Assembly (NCBI RefSeq): GCF_001578105.1
Contig: NZ_CP014275.1
Coordinates: 1,550,001-1,614,000 of the forward strand
Direction of reading: 5' to 3'
Source: Martelella sp. AD-3
GTDB lineage: Bacteria > Pseudomonadota > Alphaproteobacteria > Rhizobiales > Rhizobiaceae
DNA length: 64,000 nucleotides
Of this stretch, positions 3,418 to 63,413 are shown one piece after another; the first letter of the stretch is position 1; every line of letters starts with the position of its first letter. The notes beneath the pieces are model-generated. The model was not told where the DNA came from and made no database searches. It saw nothing but the letters and a program-made list of their open reading frames with translations. The position numbers and the translations under genes were made by a program.

Positions 3418-4251
3418 TCAGCCCTTGACCGCGCCCTGGGTCATGCCGCTGATGAGACGTTTCTGGACAATCAGGAACAGCACCGTCGCCGGCAGCGCGC
3501 CGACAATGCCGCCCGCCGTCAGCAGGCCCCACTGCACCTCGTATTCGCCGATCAGCGTCTGGATGGCGACCGTGATGGTGCGCACATTCTGGCCGCCGAG
3601 GGTGAGGGCGTAGAGGTACTCGTTCCATGAGGTGATGAAGATATAGATGCCGGTCGCCACGATGCCGGGCGTGCACAGCGGCAGAACCACGCGGCGCAGC
3701 GCGCCCATGCGGGTGCAGCCATCGGTCATGGCGGCCTCGTCCAGCGATTTCGGGATGCCGTTGATATAGCTCGTCATCATCCAGGTGGAGAAGGGAATGG
3801 CGACCGTCGAGTTGGCGATGATCAGCGCCAGATGCGTATCCAGCAGACCGAGCACGCGCATCAGAACGAAGAGCGGCAGGATCAGCAGAACGATCGGGAA
3901 CATGTTGATGATCAGGAACTGGATCATCAGGTATTTCTTGCCGCGGAAGGAAAACCGCGAGAAGGCATAGGCCGCCGTGACGCTGAGCGACAGACCGACG
4001 ATGACCGTGCCGACGGCAACGATCAGCGAGGCGATCATATTGTTGAGGAAGCCGACCGTCTTGAACAGGCGGATATAGTTCTCGAAGGTGGCGCCGATAA
4101 TGCTTGGGCCCTGGGTGAAGAGCCTGTCTTCAGCCGTCAGCGAGGTCAGCAACATCCACAGATAGGGACCGAGCGTGAACAGCAGGATCAGCACCATCGG
4201 CAGTTCGACGAACAGGAGGGTTCTGGTTCTGGACTTCTTTCCGGCGATCAT
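3418..4251 (-). CDS. Carbohydrate ABC transporter permease (MalG type)
   Basis: 277-residue inner-membrane permease of the CUT1 carbohydrate importer class. About six hydrophobic segments are visible, and the cytoplasmic EAA loop reads LDEAAMTDGCTRMGALRRVVLPL near residue 180, the site that docks on the ATPase. Its ATG overlaps the TGA of the other permease (ATGA). It works with the permease at 4248-5159, the binding protein at 5299-6522 and probably the divergently transcribed ATPase at 8494-9594, because no ATPase gene lies within the operon itself. The downstream isomerase and oxidoreductase suggest a sugar or polyol substrate. Confidence 0.95.
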   Translation of the reverse strand: MIAGKKSRTRTLLFVELPMVLILLFTLGPYLWMLLTSLTAEDRLFTQGPSIIGATFENYIRLFKTVGFLNNMIASLIVAVGTVIVGLSLSVTAAYAFSRFSFRGKKYLMIQFLIINMFPIVLLILPLFVLMRVLGLLDTHLALIIANSTVAIPFSTWMMTSYINGIPKSLDEAAMTDGCTRMGALRRVVLPLCTPGIVATGIYIFITSWNEYLYALTLGGQNVRTITVAIQTLIGEYEVQWGLLTAGGIVGALPATVLFLIVQKRLISGMTQGAVKG

Positions 4252-5159
4252 TTGTTGTCACCTCCGACCTTGCGCAGATAAACAATGACAAGACCCAGAA
4301 GCATGATCGTGAAGAGCACGGCGAGTGCGGAGCCGTAGCCGAAGTCGAGATTGGTGCGGGCCTTGATGAAGGCATAAAGCGGCAGCGTGTAGGTGGAGTA
4401 TCCGGGGCCGCCGCCGGTCATGACGTAAATGACGTCGATCGAGTTCGCGACCCAGATGGTTCGCAGAAGCACAGCGGTGACGAGCACGCCGGAAATGCCG
4501 GGCAGGGTGATGTGCCAGAACTGGCGGAACTTGCTGGCGCCGTCGATGGAGGCCGCCTCGTAATAGCTCTTCGGGATCGACTGGAGGGCGGCGAGGATCA
4601 TCACGGCGAAGAAGGGGAAGCCCTGCCATGTCAGCGTCAGGATAATGGCGTAAAGCGCGGTGTCGGGATCGGCAAGCCATGGGATGGACTGCTTGATGAC
4701 GTCGATCCTGAGCAGGAAGTCGTTCAGGACGCCGTAATTGCTGTCATAGATCCACACCCACATCAGGCCGATGACGACGCTCGGCAGCGCCCAGGGAATG
4801 ATGATCAGCGCGCGCGCCAGGGGCCGCCAGGAAAATTCCTGGTTCAAGAGCATGGCGGTCGCCAGGCCGAGCAGCATCTGGGCGGGGATGGTGATGCCGA
4901 TCCAGATCACGGTATGTTTCAGGGAAATCCAGAAGACTTCATCCTGGAAGGCCGCGACGAAGTTCTTCAGACCGACAAAGCTGATGGCATTGGGTTTCCA
5001 CAGCACATAATCGTGCAGGCTCATCCAGGCCGCCTGGATCATCGGGAAGAAAACGATCGCCAGCGTCACCAGTACGGCGGGTGAGAGCAGGGCATAGGGC
5101 AAGACGCGCTTGGCTAGCGCCACGCGCCCCGCCGGCATATCGGGGGCAGTCATGGTCAT
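4248..5159 (-). CDS. Carbohydrate ABC transporter permease (MalF type)
   Basis: 303-residue inner-membrane permease of the CUT1 class. The N-terminus ends in a first membrane segment (YALLSPAVLVTLAIVFFP), and further helices follow. The EAA motif is YYEAASIDGASKFRQFWHITLPG near residue 200. It precedes the MalG-type partner with a four-base overlap and follows the binding-protein gene after 139 bp that hold a stem-loop. The two permeases form the heterodimeric channel. Family assignment is firm; the substrate is not determined. Confidence 0.95.
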   Translation of the reverse strand: MTMTAPDMPAGRVALAKRVLPYALLSPAVLVTLAIVFFPMIQAAWMSLHDYVLWKPNAISFVGLKNFVAAFQDEVFWISLKHTVIWIGITIPAQMLLGLATAMLLNQEFSWRPLARALIIIPWALPSVVIGLMWVWIYDSNYGVLNDFLLRIDVIKQSIPWLADPDTALYAIILTLTWQGFPFFAVMILAALQSIPKSYYEAASIDGASKFRQFWHITLPGISGVLVTAVLLRTIWVANSIDVIYVMTGGGPGYSTYTLPLYAFIKARTNLDFGYGSALAVLFTIMLLGLVIVYLRKVGGDNK

Positions 5160-58637: not shown

Positions 58638-59057
58638 CTAACCGTCTGTCCGGGCGCGCGGCTGGCTCACGGCTTCCACCGTCAGGCGGCATATCCGGCC
58701 GTCCCGGGTGGTCCAGTCGATCGCGTGTCCGACCTTCAGGCCGATCAGCGCCGCGCCGATCGGCGTCAGGATGGAAACCCGGCCCTCCGCGATATCGGCC
58801 TTTCCCGGGTAGACGAGCGTTACCTGTCGGTCCTCTCCGAGGTCGGTGGTGAAGCGAACGGTCGTTCCCATGCGCACGACATCGTCGGCTATGCGTTCGT
58901 CCGCCACGATGCGGGCGCGCTCGAGTTCGGTAAACAGGACGTCGGCCAGATCGGCATGTTTGTCGTCAAACTGTTCGGCGAGAAGCGAAAGCCGCTTGTG
59001 GTCGGTTTGCGTCAGGACAATCGCGGGTTTGCGTTGTTTCTTGTGGTTGGAAGGCAT
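58638..59057 (-). CDS. rnk: Nucleoside diphosphate kinase regulator (Rnk, GreA-like)
   Basis: 139-residue cytoplasmic protein with a short N-terminal helix region (KPAIVLTQTDHKRLSLLAEQ) and a GreA/GreB C-terminal domain (VRMGTTVRFTTDLGEDRQVTLVYPGKADIAEGRVSILTPIGAALIGLKVG). It binds RNA polymerase without the long coiled-coil of GreA and influences nucleotide pools. The ATG at 59057 has AAGGAG 7 bases before it. It lies divergent from the flavocytochrome pair, 486 bp away. Confidence 0.92.
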   Translation of the reverse strand: MPSNHKKQRKPAIVLTQTDHKRLSLLAEQFDDKHADLADVLFTELERARIVADERIADDVVRMGTTVRFTTDLGEDRQVTLVYPGKADIAEGRVSILTPIGAALIGLKVGHAIDWTTRDGRICRLTVEAVSQPRARTDG

Positions 59058-59269
59058 AGTCCGTCTCCTTGCTGGGATGAGCAGCACAATGAACGCCGTG
59101 CGGGCGTTGTTTTCTCTGTATGGGGATTTTCGTGTCGCTTGACAGGCGCCGTCTCAAACGCCCGGTGGCAAACTGCCTATGCCCCGCGGCCGGGGCGCGA
59201 CGCGACCAGGCCGGGGGCTATCTGCCTGCGATGAGGCACACCCGATGAGAGCGGAGATGGAGACGCGTG

Positions 59270-59283
59270 TTGATCATGAGCAA
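59270..59283. promoter_or_regulatory. FNR/FixK-like box 1
   Basis: TTGATCATGAGCAA matches the TTGAT-N4-ATCAA consensus at nine of ten positions. It lies 261 bases before the flavoprotein ATG and 213 bases before rnk on the other strand. Confidence 0.55.
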
Positions 59284-59419
59284 GGATGTGTCCCCGAACT
59301 GTCCGCAAGTCAAGCCGTCCCCGTTGCCGCAAGATGCGTCCAGTTGTCCAATGTCCTGCCCGGTCGGGCCTCCGCCCGTGCTGAAGCCGGCGGCCATGAG
59401 ACGGCTTTGACATGGTCCG

Positions 59420-59433
59420 TTGACAGGGATCAA
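59420..59433. promoter_or_regulatory. FNR/FixK-like box 2
   Basis: TTGACAGGGATCAA matches TTGAT-N4-ATCAA at nine of ten positions and has the full TTGA-N6-TCAA core. Centre is 117 bases before the flavoprotein ATG, a plausible activator position (about -41) for a start site near 59467. Confidence 0.68.
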
Positions 59434-59543
59434 TGCGGCCCGCGATTGGCCTGCGGAGAATGGCTCTGTTGAATGGCCGTCGCCCGACTGCCCGACCTGC
59501 GGTCTCTGCGACGCGTGTTCAGCGGATGACAGAGGAGGTCACC

Positions 59544-61091
59544 ATGGAGAAGTCCAGAGACGATCCCCGCGGGCTGAGCCGCAGGCAGATGCTCGGCGCC
59601 GGTGCATCGACCGTTCTCGGCGGTCTTGCGCTTTCCGCTTCCGGAGCATTTGCGCAAACAGGCGAACTTCCCGCCGAATGGGATGAGACTGTCGATGTCG
59701 TTGTGGTGGGGACCGGATTTGCCGGATTGGCCGCCGCCTATGAGGCCGCCAAGGCGGGGGCATCCGTCGCACTGCTCGAGAAAATGCGCACGCCCGGCGG
59801 CAACTCGATCATCAGCGGCGGCGTGATCGCCGCGGCGGGATCGCCGCTCCAGGCAGAGCGGGGGATCGAAGATTCGCCGCAGAGCCTTTACGAGGACATG
59901 CTCAGAGCCGGCTTGCGGCTCAACCAGCCCGAACTTGCCAGAACCGTCGCCGAAAAATCGATGGAAACGGTGCAGTGGACGATCGATGAGCTGGGCGTCC
60001 GGTATGCCGGGCTTGTGCACATGGGCGGCCACTCGGTGCCGCGTTCCTACGGACTGGAGGCGGAAAGCGGCTCGGGCATCATCGTGCCGCAGCTGCAAAA
60101 GCTGAAGGAACTGGGCGTCGAGCCGCGCATGCGTATGCTTCTCAAGCGCATCATCCGCGATGAAGACGGGCGTGTAAAAGGCGTTCTGGTGCACCGCAAT
60201 TTCAGGCATCCCGATCTTGAAAGCGGAACGCCGATGACCATCAGGGCCAGCCGCGCCGTCGTTCTGGCAACGGGCGGGTTCGGCGCCGATCCGGCTTTCC
60301 GGGCGCTGCAGGATCCCCGTCTCGGCGGAGATCTCGATACGACCAACCAGCCGGGCGCAACCGCAGAAGCGCTGCGCGAGGCGCTCAGCATCGGTTGCAT
60401 CCTGGTGCAGCCGTCGTGGATCCAGCTTGGCCCCTGGGCCAGTCCCGACGAGCGCGGTTTCGGCCGAGCGCCGCACTTCGTGCAGGAGGTCACTGCCTCC
60501 TACGGGCTTTGGATCGACACGCTGACCGGCAAGCGGTTCGTCAACGAGAACGCCGACCGCAAGACGCGCGCCGACGCCATTCTCGCGGCGGGCAACAAGG
60601 CGATCGCCATCGCCGATGCTGCGGGCTATGCCAGGGCAACCGGCGGTGACACGGAAGATCTTGCGAGCATGATGAGCGCCGGCGTCGTCAGGGAATATGC
60701 CAGCCTCGAGGCGATCGCAGACGCGCATCAGATCCCGCTGGAGCCCTTGCTGAAGACGATCGGCGCCTTCAACCGCGATCTCGATGCCGGCGCCGACAGG
60801 GCGTTCGGGCGCTACCTGCCGGCCGATATCGGAACGGTGGCCACGCCGCCCTTCTATGTGGTCAGGCTGTCGCCGAAAATTCACCACACGATGGGCGGCT
60901 GCGCGATCAATGCCGATGCGCAGGCGCTCGACATCCGTTCGGGCGCGCCGATTGCCGGTCTTTATGCCGCCGGGGAGGTTGCCGGCGGCGTGCACGGGGC
61001 CTCGCGCCTCGGCTCCTGCGCCTATGCGGACTGCCTCGTGTTCGGCCGGATTGCCGGGCGCAATGCCGCGGCTGCACCGCGCTGGGATTAG
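59544..61091 (+). CDS. Flavocytochrome c-type FAD reductase subunit (fumarate reductase family), Tat-exported
   Basis: 515-residue flavoprotein. A twin-arginine signal LSRRQMLGAG (11-20) leads to a cleavage after AFA near residue 37, so it acts in the periplasm. FAD-binding VVVVGTGFAGLAAAYEA at 52-68, then LATGGFGADP. Active-site comparison with Shewanella fumarate reductase: His448 in KIHHTMGG and Arg488 in GASRLG are present, and Arg339 (NADRKT) fits the catalytic acid. The TE-x-x-R proton-relay motif reads QEVTA instead, and the HP motif is QPS, so the substrate may not be fumarate. The heme domain found fused in FccA is absent; a separate hexaheme gene follows. AGAGGAGG precedes the ATG. 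Confidence 0.88.
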   Translation: MEKSRDDPRGLSRRQMLGAGASTVLGGLALSASGAFAQTGELPAEWDETVDVVVVGTGFAGLAAAYEAAKAGASVALLEKMRTPGGNSIISGGVIAAAGSPLQAERGIEDSPQSLYEDMLRAGLRLNQPELARTVAEKSMETVQWTIDELGVRYAGLVHMGGHSVPRSYGLEAESGSGIIVPQLQKLKELGVEPRMRMLLKRIIRDEDGRVKGVLVHRNFRHPDLESGTPMTIRASRAVVLATGGFGADPAFRALQDPRLGGDLDTTNQPGATAEALREALSIGCILVQPSWIQLGPWASPDERGFGRAPHFVQEVTASYGLWIDTLTGKRFVNENADRKTRADAILAAGNKAIAIADAAGYARATGGDTEDLASMMSAGVVREYASLEAIADAHQIPLEPLLKTIGAFNRDLDAGADRAFGRYLPADIGTVATPPFYVVRLSPKIHHTMGGCAINADAQALDIRSGAPIAGLYAAGEVAGGVHGASRLGSCAYADCLVFGRIAGRNAAAAPRWD

Positions 61092-61160
61092 CGCATCGGC
61101 CCGAAGATCGGAATCGATTTTCGCAAAGCGCGATGTGTCGATTCAACAGCTTGGCGCTCT
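61092..61160 (+). repeat. Intergenic repeat, diverged copy D
   Basis: GCATCGGCCCGAAGATCGGAATCG... through GATTCAACAGCTTGGCGCTC corresponds to the second hairpin, linker and start of the first hairpin of copies A and B, with several changes. It sits between the two flavocytochrome genes. Confidence 0.65.
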
Positions 61161-61176
61161 GGCGCCGCTCCTTCCG

Positions 61177-61244
61177 GCGCCTCCGGTTTTCGGATGGAGG
61201 CGCGGTGCCCAAACGCGATGCGGCGCAGGGTTGCGCGCCGCATC
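61177..61244 (+). promoter_or_regulatory. Two hairpins before the hexaheme gene
   Basis: GCGCCTCC (61177-61184)/GGAGGCGC (61196-61203) and GATGCGGCGC (61217-61226)/GCGCCGCATC (61235-61244), both perfect, the second ending 26 bases before the cytochrome start. They may set the ratio of flavoprotein to cytochrome or mark mRNA processing. Confidence 0.55.
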
Positions 61245-61269
61245 GGTATTTCAAAGGGAGCTTCGCGTG

Positions 61270-61995
61270 ATGAAACAGGCAAGCATAGGCCAAGTGGCTG
61301 CCCTTGTGTTTTGGGCAGCGGCGGCTATCTGGGCGTCCGCAGCAGCGCCGCCGGCATCCGGCGCGCAGGATATCGCGTGTTCGACCCTTGAAACGGCGGT
61401 CTCCCAGGATCCGGCGTCGGAGAATATGTCCTCGGTCGAGCGGAGCATCTGCCAGTTGCAGGCGCTGAATGCCGCCTTCGGGGAGGACCGGCGACACGCC
61501 CTTCTGTTTCAGTCTTCAGGGTATTTGCGTGATGTGGGGCGCGCCGCCGGCATCAAGACGAGCGCGACCGTCGCCGATGCCGTGACGCCTTCCGCCTGCG
61601 GCGCCTGCCATGTCGACGGAGCCGTTCTTCCCGATGCCCACCCTCCTGTCGAAGGGATGACGATGAACGGGTGCCGGGACTGCCATGTTCCGGGAACGCC
61701 GCTTGCCCTGGAGGGAAGGCTCCACCTTGACCACACCCATTACCTTTCGGGGCTGGAATGCGCGACATGCCATGAGAATGCCGAGGCGCCGGAGGAGCCG
61801 GAAACACGGGTCTGTCTCGACTGTCACGGGCCGCTGGAAGCGCTTGGCGCAAGATCCGCCGACGCGTCCCCGACCAACCCGCACAGCTCGCCGCACGGCG
61901 CTCCCTTCGCCGAATGTTCCTTGTGCCATCTGCAGCACGCGCCGCAGGAAAACTACTGCGCGTCCTGCCACAATTTCAAATTCACCTTTCCATGA
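61270..61995 (+). CDS. Hexaheme c-type cytochrome, electron-transfer partner of the flavoprotein
   Basis: 241-residue exported cytochrome. A signal peptide spans about 1-32 (cleavage near ASGA-QD). Six CxxCH sites start at residues 110, 135, 164, 182, 216 and 230. The last four, with NPHSSPHG, LQHAPQ and the end YCASCHNFKFTFP, closely resemble the tetraheme domain of soluble flavocytochrome c3 (FccA), which ends with YCxxCHxFxFxMP. The first two hemes and a helical region at 35-100 are an extra N-terminal part. GGGAG precedes the ATG. It should carry electrons from a quinol dehydrogenase (CymA/NapC type, not in the window) to the FAD subunit. Confidence 0.9.
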   Translation: MKQASIGQVAALVFWAAAAIWASAAAPPASGAQDIACSTLETAVSQDPASENMSSVERSICQLQALNAAFGEDRRHALLFQSSGYLRDVGRAAGIKTSATVADAVTPSACGACHVDGAVLPDAHPPVEGMTMNGCRDCHVPGTPLALEGRLHLDHTHYLSGLECATCHENAEAPEEPETRVCLDCHGPLEALGARSADASPTNPHSSPHGAPFAECSLCHLQHAPQENYCASCHNFKFTFP

Positions 61996-62091
61996 GGAGC
62001 GCTGAGGGGCATTGATGGTTCCGGAAGCCCGCCCGGCGTCAGGATCATCGAGAAACGATGAGACGATGCCGGGCCGGTCCGGCGCTTGTAA

Positions 62092-62175
62092 GCTATTGAA
62101 TTGACGAATCGGCTTTCCGAAAGTCGACTCCGATCTTCGGGCCGATGCGCTTGCGCGGTTCCGCCTTTGGTGGAA
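62092..62175 (-). repeat. Intergenic repeat, diverged copy E
   Basis: TTGAATTGACGAATCGGCTTTCCGAAAGTCG...CTTCGGGCCGATGCGC is a decayed second hairpin of the family, followed by GCGGTTCCGCCTTTGG, which is also found after copy A near 27345. Confidence 0.6.
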
Positions 62176-63302: not shown

Positions 63303-63413
63303 AACGCCTACAGCATCGGCCCGAAAATCGGAATCGATTTTCGGAAAGCACGATGCGTAGATTCAATAGGTTAGAGCGTCCTTTGTGCATCCGAATGGAT
63401 GCACGGCGCTCTA
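63303..63413 (-). repeat. Two-hairpin intergenic repeat, copy B (RIME-like)
   Basis: Inverse orientation of copy A (27221-27330) and nearly identical over about 95 bases. The first hairpin reads GTGCATCC/GGATGCAC where copy A has GTGCGTCC/GGACGCAC, a paired change that keeps the stem. The outer arm of the second hairpin differs (GGCCGATGC). Its terminal TAG is the stop codon of the carbonic anhydrase gene. Confidence 0.85.

Follow-up and report, generated by a model that had tools for sequence, protein, structure and literature searches.

Thanks to periplasmic reductases of the flavocytochrome c family, bacteria can respire small unsaturated acids. In the fumarate reductase FccA of Shewanella, the flavin adenine dinucleotide (FAD) domain and the heme domain form a single polypeptide. 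The urocanate reductase UrdA, as PMC8238504 describes it, uses flavin mononucleotide (FMN) in place of hemes. In the Mrd/Mcc system of Geobacter sulfurreducens AM-1, according to the account in PMC4427408, a FAD subunit exported by the twin-arginine translocation (Tat) system and a multiheme cytochrome exported by the general secretory (Sec) system belong to one transcription unit. Here we consider a locus of Martelella sp. AD-3, found towards the end of a 64,000-nucleotide stretch of DNA (contig NZ_CP014275.1, positions 1,550,001 to 1,614,000), hereafter the window. It encodes a FAD protein of this family followed by a separate exported hexaheme cytochrome; the two genes are called below the pair. 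As a whole, the data are best explained by a split periplasmic reductase under low-oxygen control, to which NADH would deliver electrons through a truncated form of the Na+-translocating NADH:quinone oxidoreductase (NQR). To this complete picture we give an even chance.

A FAD Subunit and a Separate Hexaheme Cytochrome

The FAD protein matches TIGR01813 (flavo_cyto_c) with 423.7 bits, for a curated cut-off of 285.45, and PF00890 with 222.8 bits. Its best solved relatives are the flavocytochrome c fumarate reductases 1d4c (241 bits) and 1qo8 (229 bits), and urocanate reductase 6t85 (212 bits). Fumarate reductase 2 (5glg, 135 bits), a ketosteroid dehydrogenase (98 bits) and a succinate dehydrogenase (69 bits) score lower. 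As far as scores go, the subunit groups with periplasmic respiratory reductases rather than with cytoplasmic enzymes. The heme domain is not fused to the FAD domain as in FccA-type fumarate reductases, the two being encoded by separate genes. PF14537 spans residues 157-235 of the cytochrome, that is its last four hemes (55.4 bits), and residues 178-241 align with the heme domain of FccA, the C-terminal ends coinciding. Both proteins are thus what the original prediction, made from the letters of the window, had announced: a Tat-signal member of the fumarate reductase family, and a distinct exported cytochrome with six CxxCH motifs, the last four FccA-like. The outcome by which that prediction would have failed, a FAD subunit clustering with cytoplasmic or non-respiratory oxidoreductases, is not what these scores show.

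A search of 5.8 billion proteins returned 17 homologues besides the window cytochrome, and all 18 sequences were aligned. The six histidines of the motifs are invariant in this alignment, together with exactly six other histidines, which is the number that six bis-histidine hemes would need. As a side observation, an interspersed repeat found between the two genes has three copies inside 2.3 kb of the window.

Active Site and Substrate Class

Alignment with FccA and UrdA identifies Arg339 as the proton donor and His448 and Arg488 as the carboxylate clamp. These three residues are conserved in 120 of the 120 homologues listed (of 5926), the set used for all residue statistics of the FAD subunit. 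Gly296 occupies the position of His365 in FccA and of Tyr373 in UrdA, and Gln314 that of Thr377 in FccA; the FccA numbering used is that of His365, Thr377, Met375, His504 and Arg544. Hence, the catalytic residues are in place and the fumarate reductase positions are altered, as first noted. The second-carboxylate site of the FccA type, made of His365 and Thr377, is lost, and the tyrosine typical of urocanate reductase, the role of which is presented in PMC7921117, is a glycine. The listed homologues have in common a near-invariant stretch, SWIQLGPWxSPDE, where Trp292, Trp298, Asp302 and Glu303 are found in 120 of 120 sequences. At the position of Glu378 in FccA, the window protein has Glu315, which none of the other listed sequences shares.

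Such a site would suit a monocarboxylate whose tail is bulkier, or less polar, than that of fumarate. The acceptor is probably not fumarate, in keeping with the original prediction (perhaps an unsaturated acid) and as supported by the loss of the second-carboxylate site. The pair would probably reduce an unsaturated acid when oxygen is scarce.

Upstream Boxes and Regulation

Two 14-mers upstream of the pair, at 59270 and 59420, each agree with TTGAT-N4-ATCAA at nine of ten positions. When the upstream 400 bp were simulated with a first-order model (n=3000), one such site was obtained in 10 cases and two in none. The site at 59420 also follows exactly the pattern TTGAY-N4-RTCAA, which occurs 30 times in the 5.04 Mb genome, as compared with four occurrences of the reversed-pattern control. 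Pfam was run on 10 proteins neighbouring the 29 other exact boxes; these boxes are found near Crp/Fnr-type regulators, a radical S-adenosylmethionine protein and transporters of the major facilitator superfamily, some being located within reading frames.

The 300 bp upstream of the first FAD gene were then compared in 14 loci (the window, 12 relatives and a plasmid), the start codons being chosen according to the Tat motif. A perfect box is present in 10 of them, at -91 to -163. The background is 103 of 6131 windows (1.7%), the sites themselves being counted in, and the binomial probability of 1.7e-15 should be taken with reserve, since these loci share ancestry. Imperfect sites beginning with TTAAC, matching at 8-9 of 10 positions and spotted post hoc, lie at -111 to -137 in L003, L010 and L046, and no box was found within 300 bp upstream of the FAD gene in L008. 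From this conservation, the box at 59420 is read as a real FNR-type box. A function for the site at 59270 is not established, its second sighting being limited to a congener (G011, locus L027). Of the two FNR/FixK-like elements initially proposed, one is therefore retained. Induction of the putative periplasmic reductase at low oxygen appears well supported.

In the neighbourhood, a Pro/Cys-rich open reading frame of 44 codons (59276-59410) is located between the boxes. Its start overlaps the first box, it shows one change in G011, and it gave no family match in domain-family searches. Further upstream, a protein of the Rnk/GreA-GreB type is encoded on the opposite strand (58638-59087).

Distribution of the Pair

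Searches of the order and of the phylum, in which the three best candidates per genome were scored with a threshold of E <= 1e-140, recovered the FAD protein in one of 397 and one of 398 genomes, respectively, each time that of the window. This agrees with the rarity within Rhizobiales that had been anticipated. Two of 13 genomes of the genus have the protein. The pair is rare in the order and nonetheless recurrent, since 13 further loci are known from other genera.

When genome contigs were scanned, 18 loci with the cytochrome were obtained, the FAD gene being directly upstream in 16. Twelve of these (L003-L013, L020) are closely related, and the four others (L014, L016-L018), from Duodenibacillus and Sutterella, are of a tetraheme type; L015 has a cytochrome without FAD gene, and in L019 the FAD gene is on the other strand. 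Among the 12 close loci, the cytochrome has six CxxCH motifs in ten, eight in L007 and four in Alloalcanivorax (L013). Both additional motifs of the L007 protein (3693-4700) are N-terminal. A Tropicibacter plasmid also carries the pair, with six CxxCH motifs in its cytochrome. An additional partial FAD gene is observed in L012 and L020, and a full tandem copy in L010, the first member of which groups with other homologues. In a tree of the FAD subunits, the window protein pairs with that of L013 (96/93).

In L005, L007, L012 and L020, the pair is followed by a third gene, the product of which has two N-terminal CxxCH motifs and a His/Gly-rich linker. In the three cases tested (L005, L012, L020), its C-terminus matches a SlipAM-type outer-membrane barrel (PF04575, 31-43 bits). 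This gene would apparently encode a cytochrome-barrel fusion.

A Truncated NQR as the Proposed Electron Donor

The original prediction implied a quinol route, with a CymA/NapC-type donor elsewhere in the genome. This part is not supported: PF03264 (NapC/NirT) has no match in the Martelella genome, the E. coli control being positive. Such a protein is present in two of the 14 pair genomes (G069, G072) and was not found in the other 12. What remains of the respiratory interpretation is the FccA/UrdA-type enzyme, its own multiheme partner and the FNR-type box. As the search returned no quinol dehydrogenase of the NapC/CymA type, NADH, by way of an NQR-like complex, would be the most likely electron source. 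NqrA is encoded in eight of the 14 pair genomes, and in each of the eight one NQR has a truncated NqrB. This NQR lies beside the pair in L003, L010 and L013, which represent three genera and three arrangements.

The NqrB of the Martelella genome has 258 residues and those of the eight pair genomes about 256-289, versus 399-429 in five canonical proteins. It aligns with the solved NqrB from residue 135 onward. The whole SGAT loop, with the FMN-threonine, is missing, as it is in ten other truncated NqrB aligned; an Asp equivalent to residue 346 in the riboflavin-site mutant is retained. With the TIGR01937 nqrB model (cut-off 349.9), four truncated forms score 65-113 bits (64.7 for the Martelella protein) and a canonical one 537.5. 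In the structures reported in PMC10643135, ubiquinone is placed against Leu26, Ala29 and Leu33 of an N-terminal NqrB helix. As presented in PMC12174285, the quinone pocket is built by N-terminal helices absent from RnfD, and electrons pass through the FMN of NqrB before reaching riboflavin. The Martelella complex is thus not a canonical Na+-NQR. Since its NqrB has neither the quinone helices nor the FMN-threonine loop, electrons should exit from the FMN of NqrC. A scan of NqrC for the flavinylation motif was not discriminating ([ST]GA[ST] in 9/9 proteins of the truncated set and in 0/2 canonical frames).

A profile of nine truncated NqrB was run against 196 Rhodobacterales genomes. One unbroken match (E <= 2.4e-52) was obtained in 25 genomes, and split matches in frames of about 400 residues or more, taken as canonical, in 41. 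The surroundings of 23 of the 25 truncated NQRs (pair genomes G061 and G062 left out) and of 17 of the 41 canonical ones were inspected. A homologue of a pentaheme cytochrome adjoins all 23 truncated NQRs; it is broken in one, the nqrB of which also has a stop. In contrast, no frame with at least three CxxCH motifs was found beside any of the 17 canonical NQRs. Within the genus, the pentaheme gene is divergent from the NQR operon in the nine NQR-bearing genomes, that of strain AD-3 included, and a perfect FNR-type box is found inside the signal-peptide codons of the pentaheme gene in all nine regions. Near nqrA, boxes matching at nine of ten positions or better are more frequent with truncated than with canonical NQRs (15/23 vs 2/17, p 0.001); for perfect boxes the difference is not significant (9/23 vs 2/17, p 0.079).

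In L003, L010 and L013, the pair stands beside the truncated NQR in place of the pentaheme gene. A pentaheme homologue (E <= 1e-20) was not found in four pair genomes with truncated NQR (G061, G067, G068, G071), three of which have the pair adjacent. The pentaheme gene is missing beside the NQR in four of eight pair genomes versus none of 30 others, with a Fisher probability of 0.00095 that assumes 23 Rhodobacterales genomes to be without pair, as checked within 15.5 kb around their NQR. Finally, in Rhodosalinus (G066; L169 8153-10858), which gave no NqrA match, the pentaheme gene is divergent from a gene for a ferric-reductase-type NAD(P)H membrane protein. This arrangement, as if the latter protein replaced NQR, points to cytosolic NAD(P)H as the source. 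We infer that the pentaheme and hexaheme cytochromes may both be supplied with electrons that cytosolic NAD(P)H provides and that are exported from the cell interior.

Proposed Mechanism and Alternative Explanations

In the proposed mechanism, electrons would travel from NADH through the truncated NQR, a multiheme cytochrome and FAD to the acid. They would leave the FMN of NqrC on the periplasmic side. The two extra N-terminal hemes of the exported hexaheme cytochrome would reach the donor, and its four C-terminal hemes, taking the place of the FccA heme domain, would supply the Tat-exported subunit. The latter would reduce the C=C bond of an alpha,beta-unsaturated monocarboxylic acid, with the hydride coming from N5 of FAD, the proton from Arg339, and the carboxylate being held by His448 and Arg488. 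At low oxygen, a FNR/FixK-type regulator bound at 59420 would raise transcription. This direction of electron flow is favoured because of the family, the regulation and the NAD(P)H partners. More generally, the six-subunit NQR variant, frequent in Rhodobacterales, may be imagined as an NADH:periplasmic-cytochrome oxidoreductase, possibly ion-pumping, that has lost its quinone route and delivers low-potential electrons to multiheme cytochromes. The pair would then be one terminal reductase, replacing the usual pentaheme protein in some hosts. This wider proposal is tentative, and we hold it slightly short of an even chance.

Several observations weigh against the NADH-linked scheme. In the Martelella genome, the NQR is accompanied by a pentaheme cytochrome of its own, and 2.8 Mb of the contig separate it from the pair. 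Seven of the 11 congeners without the pair retain NQR and pentaheme, so that this module must have another job too. Six of the 14 pair genomes have no NqrA match, three of them being small, probably incomplete assemblies; five have neither NQR nor pentaheme (L005, L007, L012 and L020, with the diheme gene, and G064, where the contig stops shortly beyond the cytochrome gene). In Rhodobacterales, a truncated NQR is found in three of nine pair genomes vs 23 of 194 others sampled, which is not a clear enrichment. The idea that the pair is linked with NQRs in general was therefore dropped, and the argument relies on the adjacent loci and on the replacement of the pentaheme gene by the pair. The tree of FAD subunits does not bring the loci with adjacent NQR together in one group; they are interspersed with loci that have a distant NQR or the barrel gene. 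The box of the genus overlaps the codons of LT[FI]VN, and its conservation could be partly imposed at the protein level. Lastly, of the structure predictions initially recommended, the AlphaFold model of the hexaheme cytochrome had a predicted local distance difference test score (pLDDT) of 55.8 and was discarded.

Among the alternatives, an ordinary methacrylate/acrylate-type system, like Mrd/Mcc or FccAB of Wolinella, might receive its electrons from the quinol pool via a membrane protein that has escaped recognition, and the truncated NQR would then be unrelated. Mrd/Mcc shares the split architecture, the Tat plus Sec signals and the loss of the fumarate His and Thr, and the carrier between menaquinone and Mcc is likewise given as unknown in the account of that work (PMC4427408). 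In addition, NapC is present in G069 and G072, and a Citrobacter plasmid associates a FAD protein, a tetraheme cytochrome and NapC. Against this stand the 12 of 14 pair genomes in which NapC was not found. The catalytic spacing also differs, 41/109/40 in 70 of the 120 listed homologues as compared with 42/108/40 from the Mrd numbering, if Mrd Trp311 is equated with Trp298. Moreover, ubiquinone is a poor donor for fumarate-type acceptors. On balance, this quinol-fed system is less likely than the NADH-linked scheme, though not remote.

The reaction could also run in reverse. The enzyme would then be a periplasmic dehydrogenase desaturating an acid, with electrons passing via the hexaheme protein to cytochrome c and an oxidase. 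Several hosts are, by their names, marine alphaproteobacteria, NapC was not found, and the wider superfamily, at the level of weaker matches, holds dehydrogenases such as TcuA and ketosteroid dehydrogenases. However, the closest characterised relatives are reductases, the FNR-type box is conserved, the proton-donor Arg is present in every homologue listed, and the truncated NQR accompanies the pair in three genera; reversal is thus improbable. Still less probable, and in our opinion very much so, is that the hexaheme protein connects the FAD subunit with the cell surface, where a diheme barrel of the outer membrane would allow electrons to be exchanged with external partners. The diheme third gene of four loci, with its barrel end in the three tested, would fit this idea, and the genomes concerned make up four of the six that gave no NqrA match. 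Nevertheless, no match to the barrel protein was obtained in the Martelella genome or in G011.

If the wider proposal on the NQR variant is true, alphaproteobacteria would possess a quinone-free anaerobic respiratory branch. Ubiquinone is the usual quinone of these orders. A route avoiding quinones would explain the use of a low-potential acceptor without NapC, perhaps with ubiquinone only. What looks new is that the partner has six hemes, together with the signature of the family, the box conserved upstream and the association with an NQR variant; a small literature search, with subscription papers outside it, returned no description of the pair or of the truncated NQR.

Table 1. Positions of the features discussed; window coordinates unless a locus (L) or genome (G) is named.
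Feature	Position	Strand	Remarks
Weaker FNR-like 14-mer TTGATCATGAGCAA	59270..59283		9/10; function doubtful
FNR/FixK-type box TTGACAGGGATCAA	59420..59433		124 bp 5' of ATG 59544; exact TTGAY-N4-RTCAA
FAD subunit gene	59544..61091	+	515 aa; Tat-exported, flavocytochrome c family, Tat motif RRQMLG; start ATG 59544 (ATG 59526 also possible), stop 61091
Interspersed repeat between FAD and cytochrome genes	61093..61157		second copy 63313-63377 (86%), inverted copy 62112-62151, also delimited as 62089-62151
Exported hexaheme c-type cytochrome gene	61270..61995	+	241 aa; CxxCH at residues 110, 135, 164, 182, 216, 230
Two extra N-terminal heme motifs CGACH, CRDCH	61597..61686	+	outside FccA-like tetraheme domain, from sequence and alignment
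FccA-like tetraheme domain, ending in CHNFKFTFP	61735..61992	+	PF14537 and FccA alignment
Third (diheme) gene after the pair	L005 3698-5038, L007 4756-6039, L012 10453-11859, L020 8169-9593
apbE-nqrFEDCBA operon	G000:C1 about 4418900-4425300		divergent from pentaheme cytochrome gene
NQR operon and pentaheme region	L063 1373-9030 = G000:C1:4418872-4426529		FNR-type box in pentaheme signal-peptide codons

Comparison With Known Systems

With Mrd/Mcc, the pair has in common the Tat-exported FAD subunit and the Sec-exported multiheme cytochrome within one transcription unit, the active-site His and two Arg with loss of the fumarate-binding His and Ser/Thr, and, as the same account reports for Mrd/Mcc, a history of horizontal transfer (PMC4427408). 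Mcc is given there as having 4-7 CxxCH motifs, and the window cytochrome has six; the residue spacing seems slightly different, Mrd being compared by its published numbering rather than by its sequence. A split FAD subunit and heme subunit also occur in Wolinella (PMC4427408) and, in a Wolinella-like arrangement, on an IncF plasmid of Citrobacter (L047 3779-6427). In the latter, the tetraheme cytochrome gene is followed by a NapC-type gene, of which no counterpart was found in the Martelella genome, whereas the window cytochrome has two extra hemes. The FAD domains of Shewanella FccA and UrdA, at about 240 and 212 bits, have the same proton donor and carboxylate clamp, with FccA His365 and UrdA Tyr373 replaced by Gly296 in the window protein. 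The heme domain of FccA corresponds to the last four hemes of the window cytochrome, but within one chain, and where UrdA has FMN the pair has a hexaheme cytochrome.

As for the NQR, it has NqrA-F and ApbE like Na+-NQR, from which it differs by the short NqrB without quinone helices. Its membrane subunit is without the flavinylation threonine, as in the two-subunit Nqr/Rnf-like complexes described in PMC11334425, but it has six subunits. Like the RNF of Methanosarcina (PMC12174285), it adjoins a multiheme cytochrome gene. The nearest published idea found is the proposal, set out in PMC11334425, that a two-subunit Nqr/Rnf-like complex exports electrons.

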